DNA of 41,917 nucleotides, taken from assembly GCA_913061475.1 (NCBI GenBank), contig CAJXUN010000040.1:1-41917 (forward strand), given 5' to 3'. Under the pieces are notes generated by a model. That model made no database searches, was not told where the DNA came from, and saw only the letters and a program-made list of their open reading frames with translations. This DNA is from an uncultured Colwellia sp. GTDB taxonomy: Bacteria > Pseudomonadota > Gammaproteobacteria > Enterobacterales > Alteromonadaceae. Position numbers and translations under genes: made by a program. How positions within the stretch are numbered: the first letter of the stretch is position 1; each line of letters begins with the position of its first letter. Positions 740-33,190 of this stretch are shown here, in pieces.

Positions 740-1282
740 ATGAAATTTAAAGACGCATTAAATGCGGAAGAAAAAAAGTTATTTAAAGACGCCATAGGTA
801 AGGTAAAACCTATGGTGCAGGACAGAGTACACCCCGAAAAAAGAACCATCAAGCAGAAAACCACATTCATAGGGCAAAAAGATAAAAAAGCCCTTGCCGA
901 GTTTCACTTCTCTGACGAATTTGAACCTAATTTGAATAATCAGGGGCCGGTAAAATATGTCCGTGAAGGGGTCGATAGCTTTGAAGCTAAAAATTTACGA
1001 CGTGGACAATACTCACCTGACTTAATTTTAGACCTACACGGTTTAGATCAACAACAATCAAAACGAGAGATAGCAGCCCTATTGGCTGCTTGCGAAAAAG
1101 AGCATGCTCAATGTGTTTGTATTGTTCATGGTTTAGGTGGACGAATATTAAAAAATAAAGTACCGCACTGGTTAGTGCAGCACCCTGATGTGATGGCATT
1201 TCATCAAGCACCGTTAGAATGGGGCGGTAATGGCGCATTACTGGTTTTAGTGGAATTAAAAGACAAATTTGTTCGCGATTAA
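740..1282 (+). CDS. smrB: SmrB, Smr-domain endonuclease acting on collided ribosomes
   Basis: Small MutS-related (Smr) domain protein. SmrB homologues are known to bind collided ribosomes and cleave the mRNA between them, feeding ribosome rescue. The 180-residue protein matches E. coli SmrB (about 183 aa) over its whole length. It has the conserved segment FSDEFEPNLNNQGPVKYVR (about 57-75), the Smr motif DLHGL (98-102), the HGLGG loop (130-134) and the AFHQAP element (153-158). The N-terminal charged extension is the part that contacts the ribosome in the family. The gene is divergent from prmB. Start ATG 740 gives the usual N-terminus (MKFKDALNAEEKKLF). Confidence 0.94.
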   Translation: MKFKDALNAEEKKLFKDAIGKVKPMVQDRVHPEKRTIKQKTTFIGQKDKKALAEFHFSDEFEPNLNNQGPVKYVREGVDSFEAKNLRRGQYSPDLILDLHGLDQQQSKREIAALLAACEKEHAQCVCIVHGLGGRILKNKVPHWLVQHPDVMAFHQAPLEWGGNGALLVLVELKDKFVRD

Positions 1283-1311
1283 AATCCAATGCACAATCAA
1301 AATTACCGTTA

Positions 1312-1788
1312 CTATTTTATGTCACTAGGTGAAATCAAGGCCAGCAATTCGCCCTTCATCTGCTCCGTATCATAGTCAATTTGTGCGACAGATGCGGTTT
1401 GAAATATTGGCATCGCGTTATCGCTAGTTAACTCGGCAATTAAATAACTCACTAAAGGCATATGTGAAACCAATAAAATATGCTGATATTGTTCAATACT
1501 ACAAATAGCATCGAGGTAATCATGTACTGCTTTCGGATTATCTTCTGGTGTAATAATACTTAAGGTTTCTTTTTTGCCAACATTCACTAGTTTACTCAGC
1601 ACTGCCTCAGCCGTTTGTTGCGCTCGCAGGTATGGACTAACCAGAACACAATCAAAACAAGGTGCCTGTTTAGACAGCCAATGTCCCATCTCTTGCGCTT
1701 CTTTAATGCCTTTATCCGTCAGTGGTCTTAACGCATCCGAAGCGGCAACCATCCCAGCTTGTCCATGACGCATAACAAATATTTGCAT
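1312..1788 (-). CDS. sixA: SixA, phosphohistidine phosphatase
   Basis: Histidine phosphatase of the SixA branch. SixA removes phosphate from histidine phosphotransfer proteins (ArcB HPt and nitrogen-PTS NPr in E. coli). The protein starts MQIFVMRHGQAG with the catalytic RHG motif at residues 7-9, and the second histidine lies in the LVSHMPLV segment (about 109). The open frame extends 13 codons upstream of 1788, but I start at the internal ATG. It sits about 7 nt behind an AAGG ribosome binding site and gives 158 aa, the usual SixA length, with the phosphatase strand at the N-terminus. The gene is convergent with smrB, the two stops being about 30 bp apart. Confidence 0.92.
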   Translation of the reverse strand: MQIFVMRHGQAGMVAASDALRPLTDKGIKEAQEMGHWLSKQAPCFDCVLVSPYLRAQQTAEAVLSKLVNVGKKETLSIITPEDNPKAVHDYLDAICSIEQYQHILLVSHMPLVSYLIAELTSDNAMPIFQTASVAQIDYDTEQMKGELLALISPSDIK

Positions 1789-2043
1789 AAATACCTTAAT
1801 TTCAAAGCGGTTTGATGACATCCCCAACGAATATCAGCATGCATTTTTAACTATTTTGACTATAAATTTAATCAATTACCGCTATAGTAAAGGAATTATT
1901 TATCTTTTTATAACATCGGTTAAGAATAAAATGGACTCACCTTATTCCTTAAGGTAATTTAGAACGATAATAAAAATAACATTCAAGCCAGAACATGCTG
2001 CATTGTCAAAGCCTGTTATTGGCTAAATTGTCTGGGAGCAACA

Positions 2044-4833
2044 GTGAAAAAAAGCCCAAATGACACTAAGCAATATAAAACAATTACTCTAGCCAACGGC
2101 TTGAGAATATTATTGGTGCATAATGCTGAGTCAAATAAGTCGGCCGCGGCGCTGGCCGTCAATGTTGGACACTTTGATGATCCTAATCACCGACAAGGCC
2201 TTGCACATTTTTTAGAACACATGCTATTTCTTGGCACTGAAAACTTTCCTGACGGCAGCGAATATCAGAAATTCATTAGTGAGCATGGTGGCAGTAATAA
2301 TGCTTGGACGGCAACCGAGCATACCTGCTTTTTCTTTGATATTGGTCATCAACACTTTGACACCGCGATAGAGCGCTTTGGTGAGTTTTTCACCGCCCCT
2401 TTATTATCTGAAGAGTTTGTCAACAAAGAACGTAAAAACATTGACGCTGAATTCAAACTTAAGCTTAAAGATGATATTCGACGCCTTTATGATGTGCATA
2501 AAGAGACCATCAATCAAGCGCACCCATTTGCCAAGTTTTCAGTCGGTAGCAGTGAAACACTTGCCGATAAAGCCGGTTACAATTTACGTGATGAAGTCTG
2601 TAGTTTTTTTCAAGAAAACTATCAAGCGCATTTTATGACCTTAGTGCTAGAAGGCCCACAATCAATCGCTGAGCTGGAAAGTTTAGCCAACAGTCATTTT
2701 TCAAAAATCAAATCTAACGGCATTAGTAAAGCTGAAATTAGCCAACCACTTTATCATCCACAGCACCAACAAAAGTGGATATCGGTACAGCCGGTAAAAA
2801 ACGATCAACAACTGATCATTAGTTTCGCCATGCCGAGTATCGACAAGTTATACCGTCAAAAACCTGAATCAATTCTTGCCTATTTAATCGGCCATGAAGG
2901 CCCTGGTAGTATATTATCGTTATTAAAAAGTAAACAGTGGGCGTTGGCCTTAACCGCGGGGTCAGGAATAAACGGCTCTAACTTTAAAGATTTTAATATT
3001 AGTATTTCACTATCTGAGCTCGGCGAGAAAAATATAAACGCCATTATCAGCATAGTGTTTTCATATCTAAATTTACTCAAAAAAGCACCGCTTAATGAAC
3101 AATATTACCGAGAAAAAAAAGCCTTAGCTGAATTGTCATTTGCTTACCAAGAGAAACTCTCACCACTAGATTCTGTCAGCCAACTCGTCGTCAATATGCA
3201 GCATTATCCTGAGCAAGACTACATTTTCGGCGATTATGTTATGCAAGGATTAGACGAGTCTGCGTTTAAAACTTTATTGGGTTATATGGTCGCGACAAAT
3301 GTACGCATCATCGCGATTGGCAAACATGAACAAGAGCATACGTGTGTCAGTAAATGGTACCGAGTTCCTTACTCCGTCACGGATATAGCACAAGCAGAAA
3401 TTGAACAGTGGCAACACGCCGACACACTAGCTGAGTTATCTTTACCCAATAAAAACCCTTACATCGTGTCTCGACCTGAATTAATTCTTGATGATTCAAG
3501 CGACAATACTCCGCTAACACCACCAAAGAGTATTTGTCAAAAAAATGGCCTAAATGTTTGGTTTAAACACGATACTAGCTTTAAAACCCCAAAAGGATAC
3601 ATCTACTTATCAATAGACTCGCCGGCAGTAATAGAAAGCGCTAGCACGATAGCCATGACACGTTTATTTATCGACTTGTATAGTGATGCCGTTATCGAAG
3701 AGCATTACGATGCCGAACTAGCAGGCATTCACTATCATTTGTATTCTCATCAAAGTGGCTTAACGCTGCAATTATCGGGTATCAGTACCAAGCAAGAACA
3801 GCTATTACCTTTGCTATTGGCGAGCTTAATGCAATGTAACTTTTGTAAGCAGACCTTTGAATTGTTTAAACAACAATTACTTAGCCACTGGAAGAATGCA
3901 GGAAACAGTAAATCAATTTCTCAATTATTTGCCACGCTTAGCGCGACTATGCAACCCAAAAGTCCAAGCAGCCAAACCTTAATTGAAGCACTTGAAAAGA
4001 TAGAATTTAGCCAGTTTAAAAGTTTTGTTCCTCGTATTTTTGAAAACACTGCGGTCGATGCGCTTATACATGGTAATTGGTCAAGGCAATCAGCTGACAA
4101 AATTATTGCTGATATTAAACAAGAATTTTCAGGTAAACTCTCACAAGCAAACCAAGTAAAAATACCTTGTATTGATATTCAAGGCCAAGGAACGTTAACG
4201 ATTCCTATGGAATTACCAGAGCACGATCATGCCGCGGTGCTCTATTACCCAATGCCGAAAAAAGATCTACGAACCGTCGCATTAACCATGTTAACTAACC
4301 AGTTGCTATCACCTACATTCTTTCAAGAAATGCGGACAGAAAAACAATATGGCTATTTAGTGGGTGTCGGTTTTATCCCTATTAATCGCTATCCCGGCAT
4401 AGCCTTCTATATTCAATCACCTCATACCGACGCCATCACATTAACTAAAGCTATGGATGACTTTATAACAAGAACAAGAGATTATATTGCTCACTTGCCC
4501 AATGAACATTGGCAACACTTACAATTTGGCTTGGCAAGTCAGCTGCAAGAAAAAGATACTAACCTGAGAATAAAAAGTCAGCGCTACTGGGCGGCTATTT
4601 GTAATAAAGAAGCTTCGTTCACTCAAAAGCAAAAACTAATTACAGTCATTGAAAATTTATCAATACCAGACGTTGCTGAGTTTCTCCAACAACATTTTCA
4701 TGGTTCTATGACGAAAGATCGCTTGTCTTTACTAAGTTACGAAAACAAAAATCAATTATCAGCCATGAACAAAGATCTGACAATTAATAAGGATCTGAAA
4801 ACTTTATTAAAAAAATGTCAAAGAAAATATTAA
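2044..4833 (+). CDS. M16 family zinc metalloprotease (pitrilysin/insulysin type)
   Basis: Large peptidase M16A homologue of 929 residues, the length typical of pitrilysin and insulin-degrading enzyme (two homologous halves forming a closed chamber that degrades peptides). The inverted zinc motif HFLEH is at 55-59, and the third ligand is E136 in ERKNIDAEF. Its distance from the second histidine (77 residues) equals that in pitrilysin. The C-terminal half has the family motif RTEKQYGYLVGVGF. There is no N-terminal signal peptide (MKKSPNDTKQYKTITLANGLR), so unlike E. coli pitrilysin it is probably cytoplasmic. The start codon is GTG at 2044 behind GGGAG. The upstream 215 bp are non-coding and AT-rich with no signal I trust. 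The natural substrate cannot be read from the sequence. Confidence 0.93.
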   Translation: MKKSPNDTKQYKTITLANGLRILLVHNAESNKSAAALAVNVGHFDDPNHRQGLAHFLEHMLFLGTENFPDGSEYQKFISEHGGSNNAWTATEHTCFFFDIGHQHFDTAIERFGEFFTAPLLSEEFVNKERKNIDAEFKLKLKDDIRRLYDVHKETINQAHPFAKFSVGSSETLADKAGYNLRDEVCSFFQENYQAHFMTLVLEGPQSIAELESLANSHFSKIKSNGISKAEISQPLYHPQHQQKWISVQPVKNDQQLIISFAMPSIDKLYRQKPESILAYLIGHEGPGSILSLLKSKQWALALTAGSGINGSNFKDFNISISLSELGEKNINAIISIVFSYLNLLKKAPLNEQYYREKKALAELSFAYQEKLSPLDSVSQLVVNMQHYPEQDYIFGDYVMQGLDESAFKTLLGYMVATNVRIIAIGKHEQEHTCVSKWYRVPYSVTDIAQAEIEQWQHADTLAELSLPNKNPYIVSRPELILDDSSDNTPLTPPKSICQKNGLNVWFKHDTSFKTPKGYIYLSIDSPAVIESASTIAMTRLFIDLYSDAVIEEHYDAELAGIHYHLYSHQSGLTLQLSGISTKQEQLLPLLLASLMQCNFCKQTFELFKQQLLSHWKNAGNSKSISQLFATLSATMQPKSPSSQTLIEALEKIEFSQFKSFVPRIFENTAVDALIHGNWSRQSADKIIADIKQEFSGKLSQANQVKIPCIDIQGQGTLTIPMELPEHDHAAVLYYPMPKKDLRTVALTMLTNQLLSPTFFQEMRTEKQYGYLVGVGFIPINRYPGIAFYIQSPHTDAITLTKAMDDFITRTRDYIAHLPNEHWQHLQFGLASQLQEKDTNLRIKSQRYWAAICNKEASFTQKQKLITVIENLSIPDVAEFLQQHFHGSMTKDRLSLLSYENKNQLSAMNKDLTINKDLKTLLKKCQRKY

Positions 4834-4981
4834 TTTAGCCGATACATATTGATGCATGGGTAAGTGTGTTAGTGGGAGGAAGGCCATCAGACTATCGCAG
4901 CGCAGTAATAGCAAAGATTGACTTAGCTCCTTACATCATTTGTAATGAGTCATTGCACCCAATAACAATAATAATATATGG

Positions 4982-5013
4982 CATACCTAAGTTAAAAGTA
5001 CATTATAGGTATG
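4982..5013. repeat. short inverted repeat upstream of the GGDEF/EAL gene
   Basis: CATACCTA (4982-4989) and TAGGTATG (5006-5013) are perfect 8-bp arms around a 16-bp spacer, 27 bp before the chosen GTG start of the next gene. It could be an operator or a 5'-UTR hairpin. The role is unknown, and an arm of this length could arise by chance in AT-rich DNA. Confidence 0.3.
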
Positions 5014-5039
5014 AGTTTCACTTTCAAAAGGTTGAGTTA

Positions 5040-8000
5040 GTGCTTTTGTTTTTTTATCAAAATAAATTAAATTCTAAATTTTCTCCGATTTTTGCCATCT
5101 TGGCTATATTGCTTCTGCTATTCCCCAATGGCAAAACCTTAGCCCTAGCAAATAACATCAATAAAACCTCATTAAAGTTTGAGCGCATATCAATCGCCGA
5201 AGGTTTATCGCAAAGCTACGTTTACGATATTATACAAGATAAAAATGGCTTTATATGGATTGCCACACAAGACGGTTTAAATCGTTATGACGGTAAAAAT
5301 TTCGTCTATTATCGTCACAATAGTTCCAACAAAGATTCTATTGCCGACAACTTTATTCGTAAATTGTTTATTGATAATCGAGGTGTGCTGTGGATTGGCA
5401 CAAATAAAGGTTTAAGTACCTATAATGAGGAATTCAATAATTTTGATAACTTTTTCCATCAAAGTAACGATAGCAATTCATTAAAAGACAATGAAATTTG
5501 GGATATTTATCAAGATCCGCAAAATGATATTTGGATTTCCACCAAAGAAGGCTTACATAAGTTTGATCAAGAAAATAAAAATTTTTCGCGGATAAGAATT
5601 CGCGGCTTTGATACCGCCTTAAAGGAAATTAAAACCATATTTCAAGATAATAACGGCAACTATTGGTTAGGAACCTATGACAAAGGTATCTTTTTAACCA
5701 ACAGTACATTGTCTTCGGCGGTTTCTTTAAGCGATCAGAACAAGTGGAATTTAAAACTTAACGCGAACGCGCTTTATGACTTAAAGCTTATCGACAATCA
5801 ATATTGGCTAGGCACAGATAATGGCCTCTACATTGTCTCAGAAGATTATAAGATAGTTAAACACTATACAGAAAATAGTGCTGATGTTAGCTTAAATATC
5901 TTGTCTGATAAAGTGAGAACTATTGAAAAACTTAACGATTCCGCAATTTGGTTAGGCACATTAAATGGTCTAAATAGCATTAATACGCTAACCGGTGAAG
6001 TAGAATCATATCAAAGTGTCCAACATAAAAATGCACTATCTTTTGACCTTATATTAAAAATTTATCGAGATAATGCCGGCAAGTTATGGCTAGGTACGAA
6101 TGGAGGAGGAATAAATACCTTCAGCCCTATTCAATTAAAGATAAATCATGGCCTATTCAATTATGCAGATTCCGAACAAGCAGTGTATGCACTTGCTGAA
6201 ACATCTGATGGCACAACCTGGTTTACTACTGATAATGGCCAGCTGAATAAAATAAACCCTAATGGCGAAATTGAGAGTTTTCCCACACCAAACAAAAGAC
6301 CATTTAGCCACCTTATCGCTGATGATAAAAATAACCTTTGGTTAAAAAAAGAACCTGTAACTCAATCTACCCCCGGTGACTTATATTACTTTGAAACTAG
6401 CACTGGCGAATTAATTGAACACCCAGAGTGGGCAAAAAAATCACGGCATAGAGACACCAGTAAACTATTACTCTTAAACGATCATTTGTGGTTTATTGAT
6501 CAACAAGGTCAACTATCAAATTATAATATTGAAACGAGGACATTTTTTACCTTTAAAAATGAAGCTTCACTCTATTTTACAGCTTTGACCAGTGATGATG
6601 GTGGTATCTGGCTTGCCAGTGAAAATAATAAAATTGTAAAATTTGACATTAACGATGAAGCATATATAACAATTACTGCTTTAAAGTCAGAAGAAGATAA
6701 CTTCAAATACATTAAAAACATTTCTATATCAAAAAATTGGATTTGGCTTGGCTCTAGAGGACAAGGCATAACCTTGCTGAATCGGTTCGATTTAACAGAA
6801 TTTAATATCAGCGAGACAACCGGCTTATCAAATAATTTTATTGCGGCCATAAAATTAGACAACTCAGAGAATGCTTGGATATCAACTAACAAGGGTATTA
6901 ACACAATAAATCCCACTTCAAAAGTAGTGCGTACATTTAATAAAACGTTAAAGCTCTATGATAATGAATTTATTAGTGACAGTGCATTGATTACCAAAGA
7001 ACAACTAGTCTATTTCGGCGGTTTGAATGGCTACCATGCTTTTTCACCACAGGATATTTTGCAACTTTCACAAAACTTACCCACTCCGTATATATCGAAT
7101 ATTTTAGTGGCAAATAAAGAAGTCCCTGTCTTCAAAAATGGCACGAATTCTTTTCACTTAAAACGAATACCTAACTTACTAAACACCTTAATTTTAGCTC
7201 ATGAACAATCCCAATTTAGTATTGAGTTTATTTCTCCAAACATCAAAATGCCAAGCTACTTAAAATATCGCTATCGTCTATTAGGTTGGGAAGATAAATG
7301 GATTGATGCCGGTAAAAACAACCTACGAGCTACCTACACTAATTTAAGCCCCGGTGATTATGCTTTTGAAGTACAAGCTTATGATTTACAGAATAATCAA
7401 GAAAGTGCAATAAAAACGCTTAACCTGACAATAATGCCGCCTTGGTGGTTATCTCGCAGCGCAATATTGGTTTACAGTCTAATAACGCTATTAATTATTG
7501 CTTATATTCTTCAACAGATGCGCCACAAACGCCTCTATCATTTACAAATAAAATTAAGTGAAGAGCGCCTTAAACTGTCACTTTGGGGGAGCGGCGATGA
7601 GATGTGGGATTGGAATATCAAAAAAGGCAAAATATATCGTTCGAACATTTGGGGCATTTTAGAATTCCCACAAGACGGTAAACGTAACGTTGGCGCCGAT
7701 CAAACCAATATTCACCAGCAAGATATTCCGCGAGTACGTGAAGCATTAAATCAGCATTTTGAAGATAGCAGCCAGCATTTCGAGGCGACCTATCGGGTAA
7801 AAGACAAAGACGACAAGTGGATCTGGGTACTCGATCGCGGAAAAATTGTCGAACGCGATGAAAAAGATAAACCTAGTCGAATGACAGGGACCCTAAAAGA
7901 TATTAGTCAAATAAAGCGTGCCGATGAACGCTTAAAGCTCTTTGCTAAGTGTATCGAGAATATTTCTGATGCTATCGTTATTTACGATCGCCAATTCACC

Positions 8001-9611
8001 GTTGTTGATGTCAATAAAGCTTTTCAGCGTATTACCGGGAAAACTAAGCTACAAATGCGTGGCACCTTACTTAAATTTGAGCAATACCCTGAGAGTTTTA
8101 ATCAAAATGTTAAGAAACACTTAATCACCAAAGGCAATTGGCATGGTGAAATAGAAAGTTTACGTGATAACGGCGCACTCTACTTAACCGATCTCAATAT
8201 TGATATTATTAAAGACGAAAATGGCAATATCTCACATTTTGTTGGTGTTTTTTCTGATATCACCAAACGTAAGCAAACAGAAGCTGAATTAAGAAAACTT
8301 GCCAATACCGATACCTTAACGGGATTGCCAAACCGATCTTATTTTCAGGCAAACCAACAACGCTTAGTGAAAAATAAAATTCATCATGCTTTGTTAGTGT
8401 TTGACTTAGATAACTTTAAAAAAGTGAATGACTCACTGGGTCACGAAGTCGGCGATGTATTACTATGTAAAGTTGCCGAACGCATAAGAACGCTTGGGCG
8501 TAATCAAGACACTGTTTATCGTTTAGGTGGTGATGAATTTAGTTTAGTTGTTGAGAATACAAATGACATACATACCATCACTAGCATCGCTAAAGAAGTA
8601 TTAGAGTCAATTGCACTGCCACTGAGATTAAAAAGCCAAGAAATTGTACTTTATAGCAGTATAGGTATCGTACTTTATCCCGAAGATGGCGCAAGTCCCC
8701 AAGAATTACTTAGAAATGCCGATACCGCCATGTATCACGCGAAGAATTCTGGCGGCAATAAGTATCAGTTTTTCAGTGACTCAATGAATAAAACAGCGGT
8801 TAAGCGCTTACAAATAGAAAATTTAATTAGGCACGGTTTAAAAGAAGACTTCTTTTCAGTTTTTTATCAACCTAAGATTGAAATTGCTACAGGTAAAATA
8901 GCTGGTATGGAAGCACTGGTACGCTTTGAAACACCCAGTAAAGGTATTATAAGCCCGGTAGTTTTCATCCCAGTATCAGAAGAAACAGGGCAAATAATCG
9001 ACATCGGTGAAGTGGTATTACGCAAGGCTTGCTTTGCCACCAAAAAATGGGTTGACGCAGGGCTTTTTGAAGGTCGCATCGCGGTAAATTTATCAGCCGT
9101 ACAGTTTACCCAACCCAATTTAGTCGCCATGATAGCGAGCATTTTAAAAGAAAGTAAATTAGCGGCGAAATACCTCGAGTTAGAAATAACTGAAGGTACG
9201 GTAATGGACTCCCCACAAAAAGCGATTGATACCATGTTGCAAATTCGCGCTATGGGCATTCATTTATCGTTAGATGACTTTGGTACCGGCTATTCATCGT
9301 TAGCTTATTTGAAAAAGTTCCCTCTCAATACCTTGAAAATTGACAAGGCTTTCGTTGATGATATTGAAACCTCTGAACAAGGGCGAAATATGGTCGCCAC
9401 CATAGTTACCATTGCGCATAATCTAGGTATGCAAGTTGTCGCTGAGGGTGTTGAAACCAATCAACAATTAAGCTTTCTTTCTGGTTTACGCTGCGAACAA
9501 TTACAAGGTTACCTGTATAGTAAACCGTTACCTGAAAATGATTTCCAAAAATATTTACTTTCATTTCAAATCACTAATAAATCAACATCTTTTGGTAGAA
9601 CTGCCATTTAA
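5040..9611 (+). CDS. Periplasmic beta-propeller sensor with PAS, GGDEF and EAL domains (c-di-GMP cyclase/phosphodiesterase)
   Basis: Membrane signalling protein of 1523 aa. In order: a signal-peptide-like hydrophobic N-terminus (about 10-40); many Reg_prop repeats (two-component regulator propeller, recurring WIGT/WLGT and GLNRYDG-type blades, about 45-700); a Y_Y_Y-type beta-sandwich; a transmembrane helix (about 803-828); two PAS/PAC modules (about 840-1085); a GGDEF domain with intact GGDEF (1163-1167) and an inhibitory I-site RNQD (1154-1157); and an EAL domain with EAL (1291-1293), ELEITEG, DDFGTGYSS (1412-1420) and AEGVET. Both catalytic sites look complete, so it may make and break c-di-GMP. 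The frame is open from 4866, but the upstream residues look like translated non-coding DNA. GTG 5040 follows AAAGG by 8 nt and places the signal peptide at the terminus. The exact start is uncertain and the ligand is unknown. Confidence 0.9.
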   Translation: MLLFFYQNKLNSKFSPIFAILAILLLLFPNGKTLALANNINKTSLKFERISIAEGLSQSYVYDIIQDKNGFIWIATQDGLNRYDGKNFVYYRHNSSNKDSIADNFIRKLFIDNRGVLWIGTNKGLSTYNEEFNNFDNFFHQSNDSNSLKDNEIWDIYQDPQNDIWISTKEGLHKFDQENKNFSRIRIRGFDTALKEIKTIFQDNNGNYWLGTYDKGIFLTNSTLSSAVSLSDQNKWNLKLNANALYDLKLIDNQYWLGTDNGLYIVSEDYKIVKHYTENSADVSLNILSDKVRTIEKLNDSAIWLGTLNGLNSINTLTGEVESYQSVQHKNALSFDLILKIYRDNAGKLWLGTNGGGINTFSPIQLKINHGLFNYADSEQAVYALAETSDGTTWFTTDNGQLNKINPNGEIESFPTPNKRPFSHLIADDKNNLWLKKEPVTQSTPGDLYYFETSTGELIEHPEWAKKSRHRDTSKLLLLNDHLWFIDQQGQLSNYNIETRTFFTFKNEASLYFTALTSDDGGIWLASENNKIVKFDINDEAYITITALKSEEDNFKYIKNISISKNWIWLGSRGQGITLLNRFDLTEFNISETTGLSNNFIAAIKLDNSENAWISTNKGINTINPTSKVVRTFNKTLKLYDNEFISDSALITKEQLVYFGGLNGYHAFSPQDILQLSQNLPTPYISNILVANKEVPVFKNGTNSFHLKRIPNLLNTLILAHEQSQFSIEFISPNIKMPSYLKYRYRLLGWEDKWIDAGKNNLRATYTNLSPGDYAFEVQAYDLQNNQESAIKTLNLTIMPPWWLSRSAILVYSLITLLIIAYILQQMRHKRLYHLQIKLSEERLKLSLWGSGDEMWDWNIKKGKIYRSNIWGILEFPQDGKRNVGADQTNIHQQDIPRVREALNQHFEDSSQHFEATYRVKDKDDKWIWVLDRGKIVERDEKDKPSRMTGTLKDISQIKRADERLKLFAKCIENISDAIVIYDRQFTVVDVNKAFQRITGKTKLQMRGTLLKFEQYPESFNQNVKKHLITKGNWHGEIESLRDNGALYLTDLNIDIIKDENGNISHFVGVFSDITKRKQTEAELRKLANTDTLTGLPNRSYFQANQQRLVKNKIHHALLVFDLDNFKKVNDSLGHEVGDVLLCKVAERIRTLGRNQDTVYRLGGDEFSLVVENTNDIHTITSIAKEVLESIALPLRLKSQEIVLYSSIGIVLYPEDGASPQELLRNADTAMYHAKNSGGNKYQFFSDSMNKTAVKRLQIENLIRHGLKEDFFSVFYQPKIEIATGKIAGMEALVRFETPSKGIISPVVFIPVSEETGQIIDIGEVVLRKACFATKKWVDAGLFEGRIAVNLSAVQFTQPNLVAMIASILKESKLAAKYLELEITEGTVMDSPQKAIDTMLQIRAMGIHLSLDDFGTGYSSLAYLKKFPLNTLKIDKAFVDDIETSEQGRNMVATIVTIAHNLGMQVVAEGVETNQQLSFLSGLRCEQLQGYLYSKPLPENDFQKYLLSFQITNKSTSFGRTAI

Positions 9612-9652
9612 TCAGTGTCGATTTTCTGGCACTTCCCTCGCCTTATAAACGC

Positions 9653-9689
9653 TAAGTGCTAAGCCTTATAAACAAAGGCTTAGCACTTA
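9653..9689. repeat. perfect 15-bp inverted repeat abutting the sigma-54 promoter
   Basis: TAAGTGCTAAGCCTT (9653-9667) and AAGGCTTAGCACTTA (9675-9689) are perfect complements around a 7-base loop. The right arm ends one base before the -24 element of the promoter that follows. GCCTTATAAAC also occurs as a direct repeat at 9640-9650 and 9663-9673. No U-tract follows, so this is either a non-canonical terminator of the GGDEF/EAL gene or a binding site for a regulator of the downstream locus. Confidence 0.75.
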
Positions 9690-9705
9690 TGGCACGCTTT
9701 TAGCT
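9690..9705 (+). promoter_or_regulatory. putative sigma-54 (RpoN) promoter
   Basis: TGGCACG-CTTT-TAGCT matches the -24/-12 consensus TGGCACG-N4-TTGCW at every position except one (A for T in the -12 box), with exact GG-to-GC spacing. Transcription would begin near 9715, about 34 nt before the ATG of the repeat-peptide gene. A sigma-54 promoter needs an activating AAA+ enhancer-binding protein, and none is encoded in this window. Confidence 0.7.
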
Positions 9706-9748
9706 TATATCTTATTGAATTTCAAAATAATCTTAATAAGGAAATAGC

Positions 9749-10060
9749 ATGCTTAGTTCACTCATTCTTTCTTTGGCAATGTCAGCAGCACCTGTAGAAG
9801 CAAACATAACTGAATACAACGTTGAAGAAGCCGGCACTCGTCGTAACCAAGTTCGTATTGGCACTCGACGTAACCAAGTTCGTATTGACCTAGAAAAGCT
9901 AGATATCAATGCAACTGGCACTCGTCGCAATCAAGTTCGCATTGACCTAGATAATCTGGATGTCACTGTAACTGGAACGCGCCGTAATCAAGTTCGTATT
10001 GACTTAGAGAAGCTGGATGTCACTGTAACTGGAACGCGCCGTAATCAAGTTCGTATCTAG
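9749..10060 (+). CDS. small exported repeat protein with five GTRRNQVRI motifs, family not recognised
   Basis: A protein of 103 aa. Residues 1-18 (MLSSLILSLAMSAAPVEA) look like a signal peptide with an AxA-like cleavage site, although the n-region has no lysine or arginine. A short linker (NITEYNVEEA) follows, then GTRRNQVRI at 29-37, 38-46, 57-65, 76-84 and 95-103. The last four copies are spaced exactly 19 residues apart by linkers such as DLEKLDVTVT, and the protein ends on the motif. AAGGAAA precedes the ATG at good spacing, and a near-consensus sigma-54 promoter lies just upstream. The coding frame is supported because synonymous codons vary between copies (cgt/cga/cgc for R) while the peptide is invariant. 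Possible roles are a repeat-peptide precursor, a small beta-rich structural or adhesive protein, or a TonB-interacting peptide (VTVTGTRR resembles a TonB-box region). I do not recognise a family. Confidence 0.8.
   Translation: MLSSLILSLAMSAAPVEANITEYNVEEAGTRRNQVRIGTRRNQVRIDLEKLDINATGTRRNQVRIDLDNLDVTVTGTRRNQVRIDLEKLDVTVTGTRRNQVRI
9833..10057 (+). repeat. in-frame 57-bp (19-codon) tandem repeats
   Basis: Five copies of the 27-bp GTRRNQVRI coding unit. Copies 2-5 recur with a 57-bp period, while copies 1 and 2 are directly adjacent. The last two periods share an identical 44-bp block (9956-9999 and 10013-10056), so that duplication is recent. Older copies differ mainly at third codon positions. 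Confidence 0.9.
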
Positions 10061-10068
10061 GAGGCGTT

Positions 10069-10173
10069 ATGATTAACTTAATTAAATCACTATTTATTAC
10101 AGAACAAATGGAAAATACCATAGCTGCCAGTATTGAAATTAAAGAAATGCCAGCAAGCACTTGGTGGAATTAA
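10069..10173 (+). CDS. 34-residue peptide downstream of the repeat protein, not recognised
   Basis: ATG at 10069 lies 5 nt after a strong Shine-Dalgarno sequence (AGGAGG, which overlaps the stop of the repeat gene) and encodes 34 codons ending TAA at 10171. The peptide begins MINLIKSLFITEQMENTIA and ends EMPASTWWN. It has a short amphipathic or hydrophobic start, an acidic middle and an unusual Trp-Trp-Asn C-terminus. There are no cysteines and no classical signal peptide. The 8-bp gap to the repeat gene and the strong ribosome binding site indicate co-transcription from the same sigma-54 promoter. The function is unknown. It could be a partner, chaperone or signal peptide for the repeat protein. 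Confidence 0.6.
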   Translation: MINLIKSLFITEQMENTIAASIEIKEMPASTWWN

Positions 10174-10198
10174 GCTCTTACAACAATTTAAGAGCTTA
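10171..10198 (+). terminator. hairpin at the end of the repeat-peptide locus
   Basis: TAAGCTCTT (10171-10179) and AAGAGCTTA (10190-10198) form a perfect 9-bp stem with a 10-base loop. The stop codon of the 34-codon gene is inside the left arm. It is followed by A residues rather than T, so it is not a textbook intrinsic terminator. It may stabilise or end the transcript. Confidence 0.4.
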
Positions 10199-10283
10199 AA
10201 AAGAGAAATGGACACTTCGCTACAAGGAAGTTAGCGTCTTTATCTCAGAGGCTATATCAAAGTAACAGGGACGAATTATATTA

Positions 10284-10487
10284 TTATGCTGAGAATAACA
10301 AGCAATCAAAACCAAAACGTTGATAAACCTTTACGCGTTTCTTCATACAAAACATTGGCCAGATCAATGGGCCGAACATTAAACCTGCCGTTGCCCAACG
10401 CTTAGCGCCGAGTCCGCTACTAATCGCCTGACAATAAAAAAATAAAGAAAAAACAACACATAATATTGCGATAAGTAATACAATCAC
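10284..10487 (-). CDS. small membrane protein of unknown function
   Basis: A 67-residue protein starting with a strong transmembrane helix (MIVLLIAILCVVFSLFFYCQAI, residues 1-22). A second hydrophobic segment contains the motif AKRWATAGLMFGPLIWPMF, and a basic tail follows. The pattern of a small inner-membrane protein with an 'A..GL.FGP' second helix is common among uncharacterised proteins of Alteromonadales. The start is GTG 10487, six bases after AGG. It runs opposite to the repeat-peptide locus and away from fadI. I infer that it is real from the membrane pattern and the ribosome binding site. No function can be given. Confidence 0.55.
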   Translation of the reverse strand: MIVLLIAILCVVFSLFFYCQAISSGLGAKRWATAGLMFGPLIWPMFCMKKRVKVYQRFGFDCLLFSA

Positions 10488-10592
10488 ACGTTACCTACTT
10501 GTAAATCAACATTAAAAAATATAAAAATAACCAGATGTGCGCATGTTAACAAGTTTAGAGTATTTGTTCAAAAAGTATATTTTAAAAGTATA

Positions 10593-10618
10593 AAAAAGAG
10601 GCAATAAATTGCCCCTTT
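10593..10618 (-). terminator. intrinsic terminator of fadIJ
   Basis: On the minus strand AAAGGGGCAAT and ATTGCCTCTTT pair (one mismatch, 2-base loop) and run directly into a T-tract (TTTTTT). It lies about 75 bp after the fadJ stop codon. A second small GC hairpin (TTGCCG/CGGCAA, 10632-10649) lies between them. Confidence 0.75.
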
Positions 10619-10691
10619 GATTTACTAATTTTTGCCGTAGCACCGGCAATAAATTACCAAAAATTTCTCTGCACTACTATCCGTTTCTATA

Positions 10692-12845
10692 TTATGAGTA
10701 AAAGCTCTCACCTTGCTCTGCCATTTTCACTAAAGCATCACACGGAGCAAATCGCTCGCCAAACTCTGCTTGCCACTGTGTTAATTTACTGACCAGTGTT
10801 GCTGCTCCCACTTTATCCATATATTGAAATGGTCCACCAAGGAATGGCGGAAAGCCGATACCGAAAATTGCGCCAATATCACCATCTCGAGCATTACGAA
10901 TAATTTCTTCGTCCAGACAACGAGCAGCTTCATTTAACATCATATAAACGCAACGTTCAGCCTGTTCGTCAGTAACCGCTTTATTACTTACTTGCAGTCC
11001 TAACAAGCTATAAACACTTTCATCGACTAATTTTTTCTTGCTCTTGGTATTATATTGATAGAAACCTTTTTTAGCTTTCTTACCTAAACGACCATCATCA
11101 ATAAGTTTTGAAAATGCCGCTGGTGGCGCAAATCGTTCACCTAATTCTGCTTGTAAGATAGGGCCTATTTTAGAGCCAATATCAATTCCCACTTCATCTA
11201 GCAACTGCATAGGACCCACTGGAAAACCAAATTTCACCATGGCTTTATCAAGTGCTTCAATAGAACAACCTTCGAGTAGTAATATCGCAGCTTCATTCAT
11301 GTAAGGCGCTAAAATACGGTTAACATAAAAGCCCGCTTTATCTTTAACCACAATGGGCGTTTTACCTTGCTTCTTAGCAAACGCCACTGTCGTTGAAATG
11401 GTTTGATCCGATGTTTTATCGTGAGCAATAATTTCAGCTAACGGCATTTTATCGACTGGAGAAAAGTAGTGTAGACCGATCACATTTTCAGGACGTTGTG
11501 CTTTTTCTGCAATTTGACCAATAGGCAAGCTAGAGGTGTTACTGGCAAAAATTGTACTTTCCTGACAATGGCTTTCAATGTCTGCCACCATATTTTGCTT
11601 TAAGGTTAAGTCTTCAAATACCGCTTCAACAACGATATCAACATTGTTGAAACCACTATATTGAGTTGTACCCGTTATCAAGGCTAATTGACTCTGCATC
11701 TCACTATGACGCATAAAACGTCGCTTAACTTTTTTGTTTAATAAGTCATAGCCATATTTCAGAGCGTAACTAATACCTTGATGTGAGATATCTTTTATTC
11801 TCACAGGCAACTTAGCTTTAGTCGCGGTAACAAAAGCAATACCGCCGCCCATTAAACCACCACCAAGAACAGCTGCATGACTAATTTTATCAGGTTCAAC
11901 ACCCTCTACGCCCTGCTCTTTTTTCATATCAGTTGTAGCAAAAAACAACTGTCGAAGCTGAGCCGACACATCTGACATCACTAACTGCCCAAAATGCTCT
12001 GCTTCTACTTGGTAACCTTTCGAAGGTGCTTGCTCTACCCCCGTACGAATGCAGTCAATAATTTTTAACGGTGCAGGATAATTGCCTTTAGTTTTACCTA
12101 ATACCGTTTTTGTTGCTTGATTAAATAAAATGCTACGACCTAAGCCATTGCCTTCAAGCAGTTTATCCATAAACGATAACTGACGGGCTTTAGGCTTTAC
12201 CTTACCAGAAAGCGCTAACTGCTCAGCCGTCGCCAGTAAGACACTGTTAGGTACCACATCACTGACTAAACCAGCTTTTAATGCTTGCTTCGCGCGCAGT
12301 TGCTTACCCGTTAGCATCATATCTAATGATTTTTGAATACCGACACGCTTTGGTAAGCGTTGGGTACCACCACCGCCTGGCAGCAAACCTAATTGCACCT
12401 CAGGTAAACCCAAGGCTGTTTTAGGGCTATCGCTACAAACAATGGCATGACACGCCATAGCCAGCTCTAATCCGCCACCTAAACAAGCACCATGAACAGC
12501 AGCTACCACCGGAATTGATAGGTTCTCTAGCTGATCAAAAATCATTTGTCCTTGGCGCGACAATGCCGTTGCTTCGGCAGCAGAAGTACAGCCTGCTAAC
12601 ATGTGTACATCAGCACCAGCGACAAAAGAGTCCGCTTTGCCACTTGCTAGCACTAAACCAACAATGGCTTTATCTTCACGTATTTCTTTTAATATCTCAG
12701 CAATTTCATCGGAGAATTCAGCCTTTAGGGTATTCATGGAATCACCTTTTACATCCATGATCAAATGGGCAATGCCATTTTCTTGACGCACCAAACTAAA
12801 GGTATTATTTTGTTCTTGTTGTGTTATTTCAGTTACATCAGTCAT
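10692..12845 (-). CDS. fadJ: FadJ, multifunctional fatty-acid oxidation alpha subunit
   Basis: Enoyl-CoA hydratase/3-hydroxyacyl-CoA dehydrogenase subunit of the FadIJ beta-oxidation complex (cytoplasmic). In order: an N-terminal crotonase domain with the oxyanion and catalytic region [12 protein letters not shown] (E127) and [22 protein letters not shown] (E149); the NAD-binding motif [14 protein letters not shown] (about residue 330); and the C-terminal dehydrogenase helical domains, including [18 protein letters not shown]. The length (717 aa) is normal for FadJ. The fadI stop and fadJ start share one base (TAATG), which indicates translational coupling. Sequence and partner place it with FadJ/FadI rather than FadB/FadA. 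Confidence 0.95.
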
Positions 12846-14164
12846 TAATCTGTCTCCACAATCATAGCAGCACCTAAACCACCTGCTGCACAGGCAGTAG
12901 TCAAACCAACACCACCACCTCGACGATTTAATTCATTTAGTGTTTGTACAATCAAGCGCGTGCCGGTTGCAGCAAAAGGATGGCCATAAGCTAGTGAACC
13001 ACCCATGACATTAAACTTGTCCATATCAATTTCACCAATCGCTTTATCTCGGCCAAGATGCGTGCGAGCAAACTTGTTACTGCCAAACATTTTAACATTG
13101 GCAAGTGCTTGTGCAGCAAAAGCCTCATGCATTTCAATTAAGTCTAAATCCGCTAAGTTCATTCCGGCACGTTGTAAGGCGATTGGCGAGGCAAAACTAG
13201 GTCCCATCAACATATCTTCCCAAACATCAATAGCAGCAAAGCCATAACTACGAATGTAGCCTAATGGCTTATAACCTAATTCTTTTGCTCGACCTTCACG
13301 CATCATTAAAATAGCAGAAGCACCATCAGTTAAGGGCGTACTTGTTGCGGCAGTTACCGTGCCGTGTTTACGATCAAAAACTGGCCGTAGTTTTGCGTAA
13401 CTAGCAAGTTCTGAGTTTTCACGAATACAGTTATCTTTTGATATAAATGTTTTATAAGGTTCGCTATGAGCAGTCATTACCTCACCGTCAAGCTTGCCTT
13501 CCTGCCAACTTTTTGTCGCTAAGGTATGTGAGCGATGCGCGAGTGCGTCTTGTTCTTCGCGAGTGATACCATGGGTTTTTGCCATTTGCTCAGCCGTTTG
13601 CCCCATTGACAAGCCAGTAGAGTATTCTGCAACCGCCGGAGGAACCGGTAATATATCTTTAAATTTAAGTTGACGAATCAACGCCATTTTAGCGCCAAAT
13701 GAACGGGCTTTACTTAAATCAAGCAAAGTGCGGGCGAATTTCTTTGACACGCCAACAGGAGCAACTGATGTTGAATCCGCGCCGCCAGCAACACCTACGT
13801 CAACAAAGCCAGCCATGATAGATTCAGCAATATTAACCGTTGATTGGAAACTCGTCGCACATGCTCTAGATACACTATAAGCATCAGTATGAATGTTCAT
13901 ACCCGTGCCTAAAACAATTTCACGAGCAATGTTTGGTGCTTCCGGCATTTGCACAACTTGGCCAAAAACAAGTTGGTCAATAATTTTAGGATCAACATCA
14001 TGCTTTTTTAGTAATTCGTTGACGACTATTTTTCCTAAATCGACCGCAGGTACACCATGAAAAGCCGTTGCTTGCTTAGCAAAAGGTGTACGTAATCCAG
14101 CAACAACTGCAATACGCTCCCCACTGCCGGTAATTAGTTTTGATTTTGTCATTTTTGTTTCCAT
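12845..14164 (-). CDS. fadI: FadI, 3-ketoacyl-CoA thiolase beta subunit
   Basis: Thiolase that carries out the last step of the beta-oxidation cycle, releasing acetyl-CoA from 3-ketoacyl-CoA, in complex with FadJ. The 439 residues align end to end with E. coli FadI (for example [42 protein letters not shown]). The acyl-accepting cysteine is C102 in [10 protein letters not shown]. The histidine motif is MHEAFAAQ, and the second cysteine is in [13 protein letters not shown] near the end. The initiator could be ATG 14164 or the in-frame ATG four codons later. It is first in a two-gene operon with fadJ, behind a FadR-like operator. Confidence 0.95.
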
Positions 14165-14179
14165 ATTGTGGCAATACTC

Positions 14180-14196
14180 AAGAGGTCTGACCTCTT
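14180..14196. promoter_or_regulatory. FadR-like operator upstream of fadIJ
   Basis: AAGAGGTCTGACCTCTT is a perfect 17-bp palindrome (8-bp arms around one base), centred 24 bp upstream of the fadI start. Its core GGTCnGACC is the core of the E. coli FadR operator (TGGTCnGACCA). FadR is known to repress fad genes until acyl-CoA releases it. Site and gene context agree, but the outer bases differ from the E. coli consensus. Confidence 0.7.
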
Positions 14197-14403
14197 AGGG
14201 TTTAAGATAATTCTAACGATAAATAGAAATAATTCAATGTTTAGCTGACAAAAATTAAGCAAATACATGCCAAGGCATTAAAAAGCTAAAGAAAAGCGCG
14301 ACAATTTTGTCATTATGGTTGTTTTTTTTAAAGCTGAACCTTATATCAATTTATGGGTCAGACATGCTGACTTAAATTTCACAATCAATAAGAACGATAA
14401 ACT

Positions 14404-15360
14404 ATGGCTATTGAACATTTTTCCTCATTAAAAGAACATTTATCTTCACAAATTATTGGACAGCATGCGCTGGTCGAAAATTTACTCATTGCGCTTTTAG
14501 CAAATGGTCATCTTATTGTAGAAGGTCCTCCGGGTTTAGCAAAAACGCGAGCGGTCAACGCCTTAGCACAAGGATTAGAGGCTGACTTTCATCGCGTGCA
14601 ATTCACCCCTGACTTATTGCCAGCAGATTTAACCGGTACCGATATTTATCGACCTGAAGATGGCACCTTTGTTTTTCAACCAGGTCCACTATTTCGTAAT
14701 TTAGTACTCGCTGATGAAATCAACCGTGCGCCAGCTAAAGTGCAATCGGCATTACTAGAAGCCATGGCAGAAGGCCAAATTACTGTTGGCAGAAATACCT
14801 ATCCATTGCCTGAACTATTTTTGGTTATGGCGACACAAAACCCCATAGAGCAAGAAGGTACTTATCCGCTACCTGAAGCTCAACTCGATCGCTTTCTAAT
14901 GCATGTTGAAATTGATTACCCTGATGCCGCCAGCGAATTAGAAATTTTAAAACTTAATCGTGGTGAAGCGCTAAAAGTAGCAAAGAAAACCGTTAAAGAA
15001 ATCACCCAAGATGATATTTTCGCAGCTCGCGAGCAAGTAATGAAAATTCACATGGCACCAGCAGTAGAAAATTATATCGTTGACTTGATCATGGCAACAC
15101 GTAATCCCGAAAAATACGATGATAAGTTAAAGCAATGGCTTGCTTATGGCGCAAGTCCGCGTGCCACAATCGCACTAGATCGCTGTGCACGTGCGAGAGC
15201 TTGGCTAAATAATCGCGAATTTGTTAGCCCAGAAGACGTACAAGCGGTTTTTCATAACGTATTGCGCCATCGCGTCTTAATGACTTATCAAGCAGAGGCT
15301 GAAGGTATCAGTAGTAATCAACTACTTGATCATATACTCAGTTTAGTGGCTGTTGCCTAA
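14404..15360 (+). CDS. moxR: MoxR-family AAA+ ATPase
   Basis: AAA+ ATPase of the MoxR family, thought to act as a chaperone that remodels or activates partner VWA-domain proteins. Walker A is GPPGLAKT (41-48), Walker B is LVLADEINRAP (D104/E105), and sensor 1 is MATQNP. The C-terminal lid domain has SPRATIALDRCARARA. The length of 318 aa is typical. It is the first gene of the six-gene Bat operon, all on the plus strand and closely spaced. A small inverted repeat, GTCAG-ACATG-CTGAC, lies at 14357-14371, 32 bp before the start. Its role is unknown. Confidence 0.93.
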   Translation: MAIEHFSSLKEHLSSQIIGQHALVENLLIALLANGHLIVEGPPGLAKTRAVNALAQGLEADFHRVQFTPDLLPADLTGTDIYRPEDGTFVFQPGPLFRNLVLADEINRAPAKVQSALLEAMAEGQITVGRNTYPLPELFLVMATQNPIEQEGTYPLPEAQLDRFLMHVEIDYPDAASELEILKLNRGEALKVAKKTVKEITQDDIFAAREQVMKIHMAPAVENYIVDLIMATRNPEKYDDKLKQWLAYGASPRATIALDRCARARAWLNNREFVSPEDVQAVFHNVLRHRVLMTYQAEAEGISSNQLLDHILSLVAVA

Positions 15361-15375
15361 GCGCCAGATACCGTT

Positions 15376-16395
15376 ATGTGGTTTAATCAAAAAAAATCAA
15401 CCGAGCAAAATAATCCGCAAGTTTTACTTGATGAACTAGTTAGCAATGGGGTCGACTTATCCATTGAAGAGCTGATTCGCTATCAAACAAAAAGCTCGCT
15501 CATTAATTTAGCCGCGTCGAAAAGCTTACATGGAAAAATGTCAGGCAATTACCTCGCCCGAAGTAAAGGCCGAGGTATGGAGTTTGATGAAGTTCGCCAT
15601 TATCAAAATGGTGATGATATTAGAGCGATTGATTGGCGGGTAACGGCCAGAACCGGCAAAACTCACACCAAGCTATTTCGTGAAGAAGTTGAACGCCCAG
15701 TGCTTATTGTTACCGATTTAAGTGCTAGCCTATTTTTTGGCAGCCGCTTACTTTTTAAATCAGTACAAGCAGCTCATGTTGCTGCGCTAGTCGCTTGGCA
15801 TGCAAAATCACGTGGCGATCGCATCGGTGGTGTGGTTTTTAATCAACATGCACATACTGAGTTAAAGCCGCGCAGCAGACAGCAAGGTGTATTACATTAC
15901 TTGCATGCGCTGGTGAAAAGCCATGCTACTTCGGCAATTGCATCAAGCGAACCATTAGATCATCAACAAGCCAAACTAGCGTTCGAGCAAAATTGTGCCC
16001 GTTTACGCCAACTCGCTAAACCCGGTAGCTTAGTGTATTTGATCACCGATGCCTTTAACCTCACCGACGATGCAGTGCGCCATTTAGCCAATGTCAGTCA
16101 ACATTGTGAGTTAGTGGTGTGTTTAATTAGTGATCCTTTAGAGCAGCAATTACCCGATAGCGCAGTAAAAATAAGCGTAACGATTACCAGTGGTGAAAAT
16201 GGTGATAACAAAGAACGTCAACAGCTGGTATTGGGCGATAAAGCATTGGCTGAAAAATATCACCAACAGGCGATAAACTTGAGTAACACCATGGAACAAA
16301 AATTAACTAAAGCAGGCGCTCGCCTACTGCATTTTTGTGCCAGCGAAGCACTGGAAACTCAATTACATCGAGGAGTAGCCTCATGGATCCGCTAG
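15376..16395 (+). CDS. DUF58 domain protein of the Bat operon
   Basis: A 339-residue protein with the DUF58 signature at about 62-108 (ARSKGRGMEFDEVRHYQNGDD then DIRAIDWRVTARTGKTHTKLF), followed by a VWA-like fold beginning VLIVTDLSASLFF. DUF58 proteins are consistently found between MoxR ATPases and VWA proteins and are presumed partners in the same membrane-associated complex. The biochemical role is not established. The gene starts 15 bp after the moxR stop and overlaps the next gene by 13 bp. No transmembrane segment is evident, so it is probably cytoplasmic. Confidence 0.9.
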   Translation: MWFNQKKSTEQNNPQVLLDELVSNGVDLSIEELIRYQTKSSLINLAASKSLHGKMSGNYLARSKGRGMEFDEVRHYQNGDDIRAIDWRVTARTGKTHTKLFREEVERPVLIVTDLSASLFFGSRLLFKSVQAAHVAALVAWHAKSRGDRIGGVVFNQHAHTELKPRSRQQGVLHYLHALVKSHATSAIASSEPLDHQQAKLAFEQNCARLRQLAKPGSLVYLITDAFNLTDDAVRHLANVSQHCELVVCLISDPLEQQLPDSAVKISVTITSGENGDNKERQQLVLGDKALAEKYHQQAINLSNTMEQKLTKAGARLLHFCASEALETQLHRGVASWIR

Positions 16396-32938: not shown

Positions 32939-32976
32939 AACAAATCCTTGTTAAGACAAAGCTAACAGCCTAAAAA

Positions 32977-33190
32977 ATAGCTGTAAGCTGTTAGTTTTAA
33001 GCTTTCAGTAAAACCGAAAGCAATAGCTTTAAGCTGTCAGTTTTAAGCTTTCAGTAAAACCGAAAAACATAGCTGTAAGCTGTCAGTTTTAAGCTTTCAG
33101 TAAAACCGAAAAACATAGCTGTAAGCTTTTAGTTTAAAGCTTTCAGTAGAACCGAAAAACATAGCTGCAAGCTGTTAGTTTTAAGCTTTC
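32977..33190. repeat. 46-bp tandem repeat array (4.65 copies)
   Basis: Units start at 32977, 33023, 33069, 33115 and 33161, exactly 46 bp apart. Each begins ATAGCTGTAAGCTG-like, continues TTTTAAGCTTTCAGTA and ends in an AACCGAAA-type segment. The fifth copy stops after 30 bp. Units differ by only a few substitutions. An inverted fragment (TTTTACTGAAAGCTGATAGC, near 33200-33219) follows. The array lies upstream of the four-helix-bundle gene in that gene's direction. Confidence 0.92.

Follow-up and report, generated by a model that had tools for sequence, protein, structure and literature searches.

Here we describe a small bacterial locus that probably makes an exported, species-specific peptide signal, which the sensor encoded immediately upstream would read into cyclic di-guanosine monophosphate (c-di-GMP). 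The locus lies in a stretch of 41,917 nucleotides (the window) from an uncultured Colwellia sp. (GenBank assembly GCA_913061475.1, contig CAJXUN010000040.1, positions 1 to 41,917 of the forward strand). Comparison with related genomes establishes that the locus is conserved, that its peptide motif is under selection, that it is linked to the sensor gene and that, within one genus, exchange of the sensor's ectodomain has been tracked by the peptide. In the mechanism that we propose, a sigma-54 promoter would drive a precursor made of an N-terminal export leader and one to many short basic peptides, typically of nine residues with an -R/K-[I/L/V/M] end. The exported precursor would be cut into identical mature peptides, the final copy needing no C-terminal cut because it reaches the stop codon, and the peptide would bind the periplasmic double-propeller ectodomain of the sensor, altering its diguanylate cyclase or phosphodiesterase activity and hence c-di-GMP; an M16 peptidase encoded ahead of the sensor might process or clear it. 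We infer export, cleavage and binding, as well as the effect on c-di-GMP and the view that the signal passes from cell to cell instead of acting inside one cell. The features concerned are as follows:

4866..9611, forward strand: sensor gene, with periplasmic Reg_prop propellers and Y_Y_Y domain, a transmembrane segment, PAS domains, GGDEF and EAL (Pfam); candidate receptor
5829..7208, forward strand: second propeller of the sensor, hypervariable between species; candidate specificity region, from distances and exchange
9615..9632, forward strand: dyad GTGTC-N8-GRCAC, which recurs upstream of the -24 element in relatives; possible enhancer-binding-protein site
9653..9689, forward strand: perfect 15-bp inverted repeat (arms 9653-9667 and 9675-9689), RNA hairpin of -24.7 kcal/mol, z -5.02
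9690..9705, forward strand: sigma-54 type -24/-12 promoter TGGCACGCTTTTAGCT, with one mismatch to TGGCAC-N5-TTGCW
9749..10060, forward strand: open reading frame (ORF) of the repeat-peptide precursor, 103 aa, with homologues in relatives
9833..9859, forward strand: motif copy 1, GTRRNQVRI
9860..9886, forward strand: motif copy 2, GTRRNQVRI
9917..9943, forward strand: motif copy 3, GTRRNQVRI
9974..10000, forward strand: motif copy 4, GTRRNQVRI
10031..10057, forward strand: motif copy 5, GTRRNQVRI, running up to the stop codon
10069..10173, forward strand: conserved 34-aa protein with an amphipathic-looking N-terminus, IEIKEMPASTWW
10170..10199, forward strand: closing hairpin, z -5.15

A first-pass annotation of this DNA had described the inverted repeat, the promoter, the 103-codon ORF, the 34-codon gene behind AGGAGG and the closing hairpin, and each lies where it was placed; its span, 9653-10198, misses the likely partner, the sensor gene at 4866-9611. 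The AGGAGG (10059-10064) overlaps the stop codon of the precursor ORF. Judged from its leader the precursor is probably exported, and the 34-aa protein is perhaps an accessory of export or processing. The first hairpin possibly ends or insulates the sensor transcript; its arms change among relatives, with complementarity kept in several (by eye). A terminator scan requiring a T-run found none within 9500-10400, the stretch that also contains the closing hairpin.

The locus is widespread among relatives. A search with the 103-aa protein matched 22 of 98 genomes (E <= 0.001) and one with the 34-aa protein 30 of 98 (E <= 0.1), each set including all 17 of the window's genus, its own genome counted. 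Relatives with a species name, looked up for 22 loci, include Colwellia polaris, Cognaticolwellia sediminilitoris, C. mytili, C. aestuarii and Thalassotalea loyana. A hidden Markov model (A1) of the 34-aa protein, built from 26 of the 30 sequences after exclusion of duplicates and near-duplicates, matched 86 of 395 family genomes, at least two of which (G185, G285) look spurious. Of 30 loci, 29 show a precursor ORF ahead of the 34-aa gene, the exception (L051) lying at a contig end, as do 36 of 40 further stretches; none was seen in L123, L141 and the spurious L142 and L143. Six loci were dropped before counting: L087 and L091 come from the same genomes as L163 and L160, and the sensor is absent from the stretches of L092, L096, L172 and L174. 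The leaders are of the type ML(S/T)S(L/I)ILS or near it, and the motif differs locus by locus (GTRPGTVRI, GTKRGVVRI, GRKASTIRI, ATRRGMIRI, GKSKAEVRI, SQKRRGSRI, SAKRGSRRL, GSTRIRIQP and others), with a motif held in common by some related species (G003/G010, G205/G223, G322/G332). Both small genes and the promoter thus co-occur in relatives, so the refutation that the first-pass annotation had set for itself, an absence of homologues with the promoter, did not come about; the GTRRNQVRI unit itself is not what is conserved, since the motif varies between most species. Genus g82 (L131-L136, L138-L140) has a gene of the 34-aa family twice in tandem after the precursor.

In Pfam and NCBIfam no family cut-off was reached by either of the window's two small proteins; resemblances of the precursor to CsrA (its best Pfam match, E 0.0013, below cut-off) and to DUF6470 (E 0.083) were taken as chance. 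The precursor of G181 did reach the DUF6470 cut-off (30.2 against 28.9 bits, E 4.1e-7, 47 of 178 profile positions) and matched an NCBIfam type VI secretion system model below cut-off (E 0.0007), both of which we take to reflect the repeat pattern.

Codon changes identify the motif as the unit of function, with the spacers loosely constrained. In the window all five DNA copies differ from one another while encoding the same nine residues, from which the first-pass annotation had argued for selection on the peptide, and the argument holds across relatives: in the 18 genomes that have two or more copies, differences between motif copies of one genome need at minimum 117 synonymous codon changes and 1 nonsynonymous, against 24 and 32 in equal-length spacers (12 genomes; Fisher p 1.3e-18). 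Counted pairwise in those same 12 precursors, the ratios are 578:6 for motifs and 37:55 for spacers, and all pairwise comparisons of within-genome copies give 650 synonymous and 6 nonsynonymous codon differences, all six from G049. Between 19 genomes, taking the first unit of each, about half of the differences are nonsynonymous (489 synonymous, 520 nonsynonymous). Since gene conversion alone would homogenise synonymous sites as well, it is selection that keeps the copies identical. In having copies that selection keeps alike within a genome and that diverge between species, the precursor resembles a multi-copy peptide pheromone precursor. The anatomy of the precursors suits a mature peptide that ends where the motif ends: among 57 distinct loci, chosen for holding the 34-aa gene, the C-terminal 5-mer or a longer string is repeated upstream in 44 precursors, whose last residue is I in 38, L in 3, V in 2 and M in 1, whose penultimate residue is R in 40 and K in 4, and whose last nine residues carry a net charge of +2 to +4 in 42. 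In the remaining 13 there is a single copy, a short tail follows the motif or the final copy is degenerate.

All 57 of these loci have a leader-bearing ORF after the sensor gene. A second set of 20 genomes has the family sensor and no detected 34-aa gene (G209 has a look-alike), and a leader-bearing small ORF accompanied by TGG-N-GC follows in 20 of 20; by eye, 11 of these ORFs terminate in -R-[I/L/F], for example WKPGSVRI or AIRVGSVRF. A search of the order added 12 loci not met before, 5 in the family and 7 outside it, with a precursor-like ORF behind the sensor in 9. Three of them, from another family, have tandem motifs and a 37-40-aa protein with an RWWG or RWWA end. Two of the nine, G073 and G630, come from stretches in which fadJ was not found; the ORF behind the sensor there contains repeats and begins with what looks by eye like a canonical signal peptide. 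Locus L208, that of G630, encodes a signal-peptide protein with many slightly varying RGTKVDPQSRLA-type repeats, in surroundings that resemble kbl/tdh by eye.

The sensor, whose GTG start at 4866 is uncertain, carries both the GGDEF and the EAL signature motifs. A model of its ectodomain (pLDDT 81.9, 14 sequences) matched BT4663, itself a ligand sensor of the periplasm, best (4a2l, TMq 0.79) and BT3049 next (3v9f, 0.74), so that the two domains, Reg_prop and Y_Y_Y, and a BT4663-like predicted fold together mark a periplasmic sensor of this type. Ectodomain homologues occur in 122 of 395 family genomes (E <= 1e-60), and in 23 of 394 order genomes (1e-50); in two families beyond these, 7 of 40 and 1 of 9 genomes have one (1e-45). 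The second propeller (frame residues 330-690) has a genus mean distance of 0.468, against 0.191 for the first.

Divergence within the genus is concentrated in the periplasmic part of the sensor, with mean differences of 0.358, against 0.080 for the cytoplasmic part and 0.114 for FadJ (16 genomes, for these distances and for the genus Mantel tests on the periplasmic part, the cytoplasmic part and FadJ; G007, without fadJ/fadI, was excluded). Several genomes among the 17 are sisters by ectodomain and not by species, namely G005 with G012, G009 with G014, G003 with G010, and G011 with G002 and G004, and the peptide features that they have in common are, in that order, ND/NE, GTVRI, an identical GTRKDQVRI and T/S-Q. 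DNA identity between G012 and G011 is 92-98% in the cytoplasmic windows, mostly above 90% beyond, and 52-67% in the propeller-2 windows, whereas between G012 and G005 it is 92-98% in the propellers and 79-88% in the cytoplasmic windows. Species markers reject ectodomain class A as a single clade (p 2.7e-12). By these comparisons, ectodomains have been exchanged between species of the window's genus, with position 6 of the peptide switching along.

Whether position 6 is Q or not can be explained by a single change on the ectodomain tree (0 of 2000 shuffles as low) and requires 4 on the species tree, and the Q class needs 2 on the propeller-1 tree (p 0.0035); positions 5-6 together need 12 changes on the species tree and 9 on the ectodomain tree (p 0.002 on the latter). 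Mantel tests in the genus associate the peptide with the periplasmic part (r 0.25, p 0.008), and not significantly with the cytoplasmic part (r 0.04) or FadJ; by region, propeller 2 (r 0.26, p 0.006) and Y_Y_Y (r 0.28, p 0.010) are significant and the N-terminus, propeller 1, PAS, GGDEF and EAL are not. Peptide positions 5-6 follow propeller 2 (r 0.44, p 0.0002). In G012 the DNA of about 2.1 kb between ectodomain and precursor tracks species, and the match is therefore not accounted for by a single transferred block; on this sequence evidence, ectodomain and motif there changed together across resident sequence.

A number of observations weigh against a species-specific signal read by this sensor. 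The leader of the window's precursor is hydrophobic and lacks a basic n-region. Nine of the 20 loci in the second set do not end in -R-[I/L/F], 4 of them being glycine-rich (for example GNGYGVGL) and 3 without a recognisable motif, and in G018, G463 and G480, from the order search, the sensor is present with no precursor seen within 1.3 kb. In G630 no sigma-54 site was seen and the repeats are variable. In G322 and G332 the precursor still stands beside fadJ while the sensor and the M16 gene are located elsewhere; among the stretches compared, L224-L229 excluded, L222 and L223 have the sensor without a precursor and L230 has one. Within the main family fadJ is conserved too and, because fadJ and the M16 gene are both conserved there, the adjacency of sensor and precursor could be plain synteny. 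As to covariation, the trait at position 6 was picked post hoc, once clusters had been seen; the independent contrasts on it agree in 4 of 4 cases, which yields only p 0.125 and cannot alone be significant; and peptide positions 3-4 show no association with the ectodomain or, in the genus, with propeller 2. Over 31 loci the cytoplasmic part likewise correlates with the peptide (r 0.35, p 0.003), which makes the association in that set unspecific. In a second genus, g38 (12 sensors), where ectodomain and species trees largely coincide, no trait significantly fitted the ectodomain tree beyond the species tree, so that replication failed or lacked power.

Other readings can be held against the same facts. 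The precursor or its fragments might stay in the producer's own periplasm and inform the sensor about export, proteolysis or the condition of the envelope; sensor linkage and covariation would be equally expected, a peptidase gene stands ahead of the sensor, and the scan of genes near the window locus revealed no recognisable outer-membrane exporter. We nevertheless consider such a cell-autonomous ligand rather unlikely, as it offers no obvious reason for strong divergence between related species with copies kept identical. The repeats, the sigma-54 type promoter and the GGDEF-EAL neighbour would also suit a structural or matrix protein, whose basic repeats would attach to exopolysaccharide, to DNA or to one another in a fibre while the sensor only regulates biofilm nearby. 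This is improbable: a single copy is enough in several genomes (G028 and G147; G012 has one and a degenerate one; tandem copies are absent by eye in 18 of the 20 loci of the second set), the motif switches along with the ectodomain in one genus, and the Pfam scan returned no curlin or fibre model. The fibre or amyloid option of the first-pass annotation is thereby left without support, and a curli-type amyloid was rejected, there being no curlin match in the scan of the window's precursor. Quite improbable, too, is an antimicrobial peptide or bacteriocin precursor whose product the sensor reads as a density or danger cue, even though the motifs are short, basic and fast to diverge, for no immunity gene varying with the motif was seen and the 34-aa neighbour varies far less, keeping 76-91% identity to the window's own copy in the 12 other genus sequences compared. 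Finally, that the sensor reads some other ligand, such as a glycan, and that the association in one genus is coincidence or recombination hitch-hiking, gains from the title of BT4663 as a heparin and heparan sulphate sensor, from the absence of replication in g38 and from the conserved synteny of the whole neighbourhood, but is very doubtful given the species-tracking 2.1 kb of G012 and the sensors of G073 and G630, which keep a small exported-looking ORF in different surroundings. The sequence evidence supports a peptide-receptor pair, for which a diffusible, species-specific signal acting on c-di-GMP is the most economical account; among the options of the first-pass annotation, a secreted signal or processed peptide source fares best.

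The promoter that would drive the signal precursor is of the sigma-54 type, as judged by conservation of its GG-N10-GC element. In the window alone the -24/-12 match is not beyond chance (2 matches, 1.93 expected); what sustains the near-consensus promoter that had been proposed is its recurrence: all 57 related loci have TGG-N-GC 52-74 nt ahead of the start codon, and the 20 of the second set have it, by eye, 60-98 nt ahead of the leader ATG. The dyad GTGTC-N8-GRCAC was found at a distance of 69-75 nt before the -24 element in 18 of 29 loci, namely the 17 of the genus and that of G040, and the window's copy is the sole exact match in its own genome. Allowing up to 3 mismatches, that genome holds 14 matches, against 21 for a reversed control, and no regulon was found, because only 1 of the 13 other matches has TGG-N-GC within 300 nt. 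The dyad resembles the FleQ box consensus GTCAAT-N2-ATTGAC, as given in PMC10723142. In a weak test, the mean best match to the FleQ/FlrA box in the 57 loci is 8.39 of 12, against 7.31 in shuffles; the window's dyad scores 8, which 20% of shuffles reach, and genus g82 has no excess. Control of the promoter by FleQ/FlrA is suggestive only.

The peptidase gene precedes the sensor:

2044..4833, forward strand: M16 family peptidase, pitrilysin/PqqF-like, with an HFLEH motif (Pfam)

Of 62 stretches searched, 54 contain a homologue, and one also adjoins the relocated sensors of G322 and G332; none was found upstream of the sensor in G073, G630, G463, G480 or G028, and G018, where no precursor was seen, has it. 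The peptidase may process or clear the peptide, its membership of the system being uncertain, and conserved synteny is an equally good explanation of its position. From 740 to 16392 the window encodes Smr, a histidine phosphatase, the M16 peptidase, the sensor, a 67-aa ORF, a FadJ-like protein, a thiolase, a MoxR-like protein and DUF58. No cytoplasmic tetratricopeptide-repeat regulator of the RRNPP kind was found among these, and no modifying enzyme of ribosomally synthesised and post-translationally modified peptides among the scanned neighbours, where the M16 peptidase with its PqqF-like lobe does lie upstream. The 67-aa protein (10284-10487, reverse strand), between the peptide locus and fadJ, is conserved, being found in 23 of 32 distant stretches searched, and has no Pfam or NCBIfam match. 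A tandem array at 32972-33190 (46-bp unit, 4.8 copies, 90% matches) is not connected with the peptide locus.

Peptide pheromones are best known in Gram-positive bacteria and fungi, and to our knowledge the ligands of this sensor type are mostly unknown; searches of an open-licence PMC library brought up no account of such a system. If the proposed signal is real, it would represent a form of peptide signalling not described before in Gram-negative bacteria. Species-specific regulation of biofilm and motility through c-di-GMP would then become testable in marine Gram-negative bacteria, and the system would supply a ligand for this sensor type together with a natural pherotype series for receptor specificity. 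More tentatively, and with the odds somewhat against it, the locus may represent a whole Gram-negative class of quorum or kin recognition, in which tandem, species-specific linear pheromones are read by BT4663-like double-propeller receptors that write c-di-GMP directly, M16 peptidases mature or clear the peptide, the precursor promoter receives feedback through a sigma-54 activator that responds to c-di-GMP, and ectodomain-peptide pherotypes spread by recombination.

The locus can be set beside several known systems. With the Gram-positive signals of the RRNPP type (Phr, PapR, SHP) it has in common a small, here probably exported, precursor, a short mature peptide predicted at the C-terminus and variation between strains or species; unlike them it is Gram-negative, often has many tandem copies and a sigma-54 type promoter, and the role of receptor would fall to a periplasmic propeller-GGDEF-EAL protein, where theirs is a cytoplasmic regulator. 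The alpha-factor precursors of fungi likewise place several copies of a species-specific peptide behind a leader, but the present locus is bacterial, with another motif, export and receptor, and the likeness is one of layout, with no claim of homology. As in the agr, ComQXPA and ComCD pherotypes, the sensing domain of the candidate receptor and the peptide diverge and switch jointly, although here there is no histidine kinase, the proposed output is c-di-GMP and the peptide would be linear and often multi-copy. Lastly, the Bacteroides sensors BT4663 and BT3049 resemble the candidate receptor in the predicted fold of the periplasmic domain, yet BT4663 is titled a heparin/heparan sulphate sensor and forms part of a hybrid two-component system, whereas the sensor described here carries PAS, GGDEF and EAL domains and is linked to a peptide gene.
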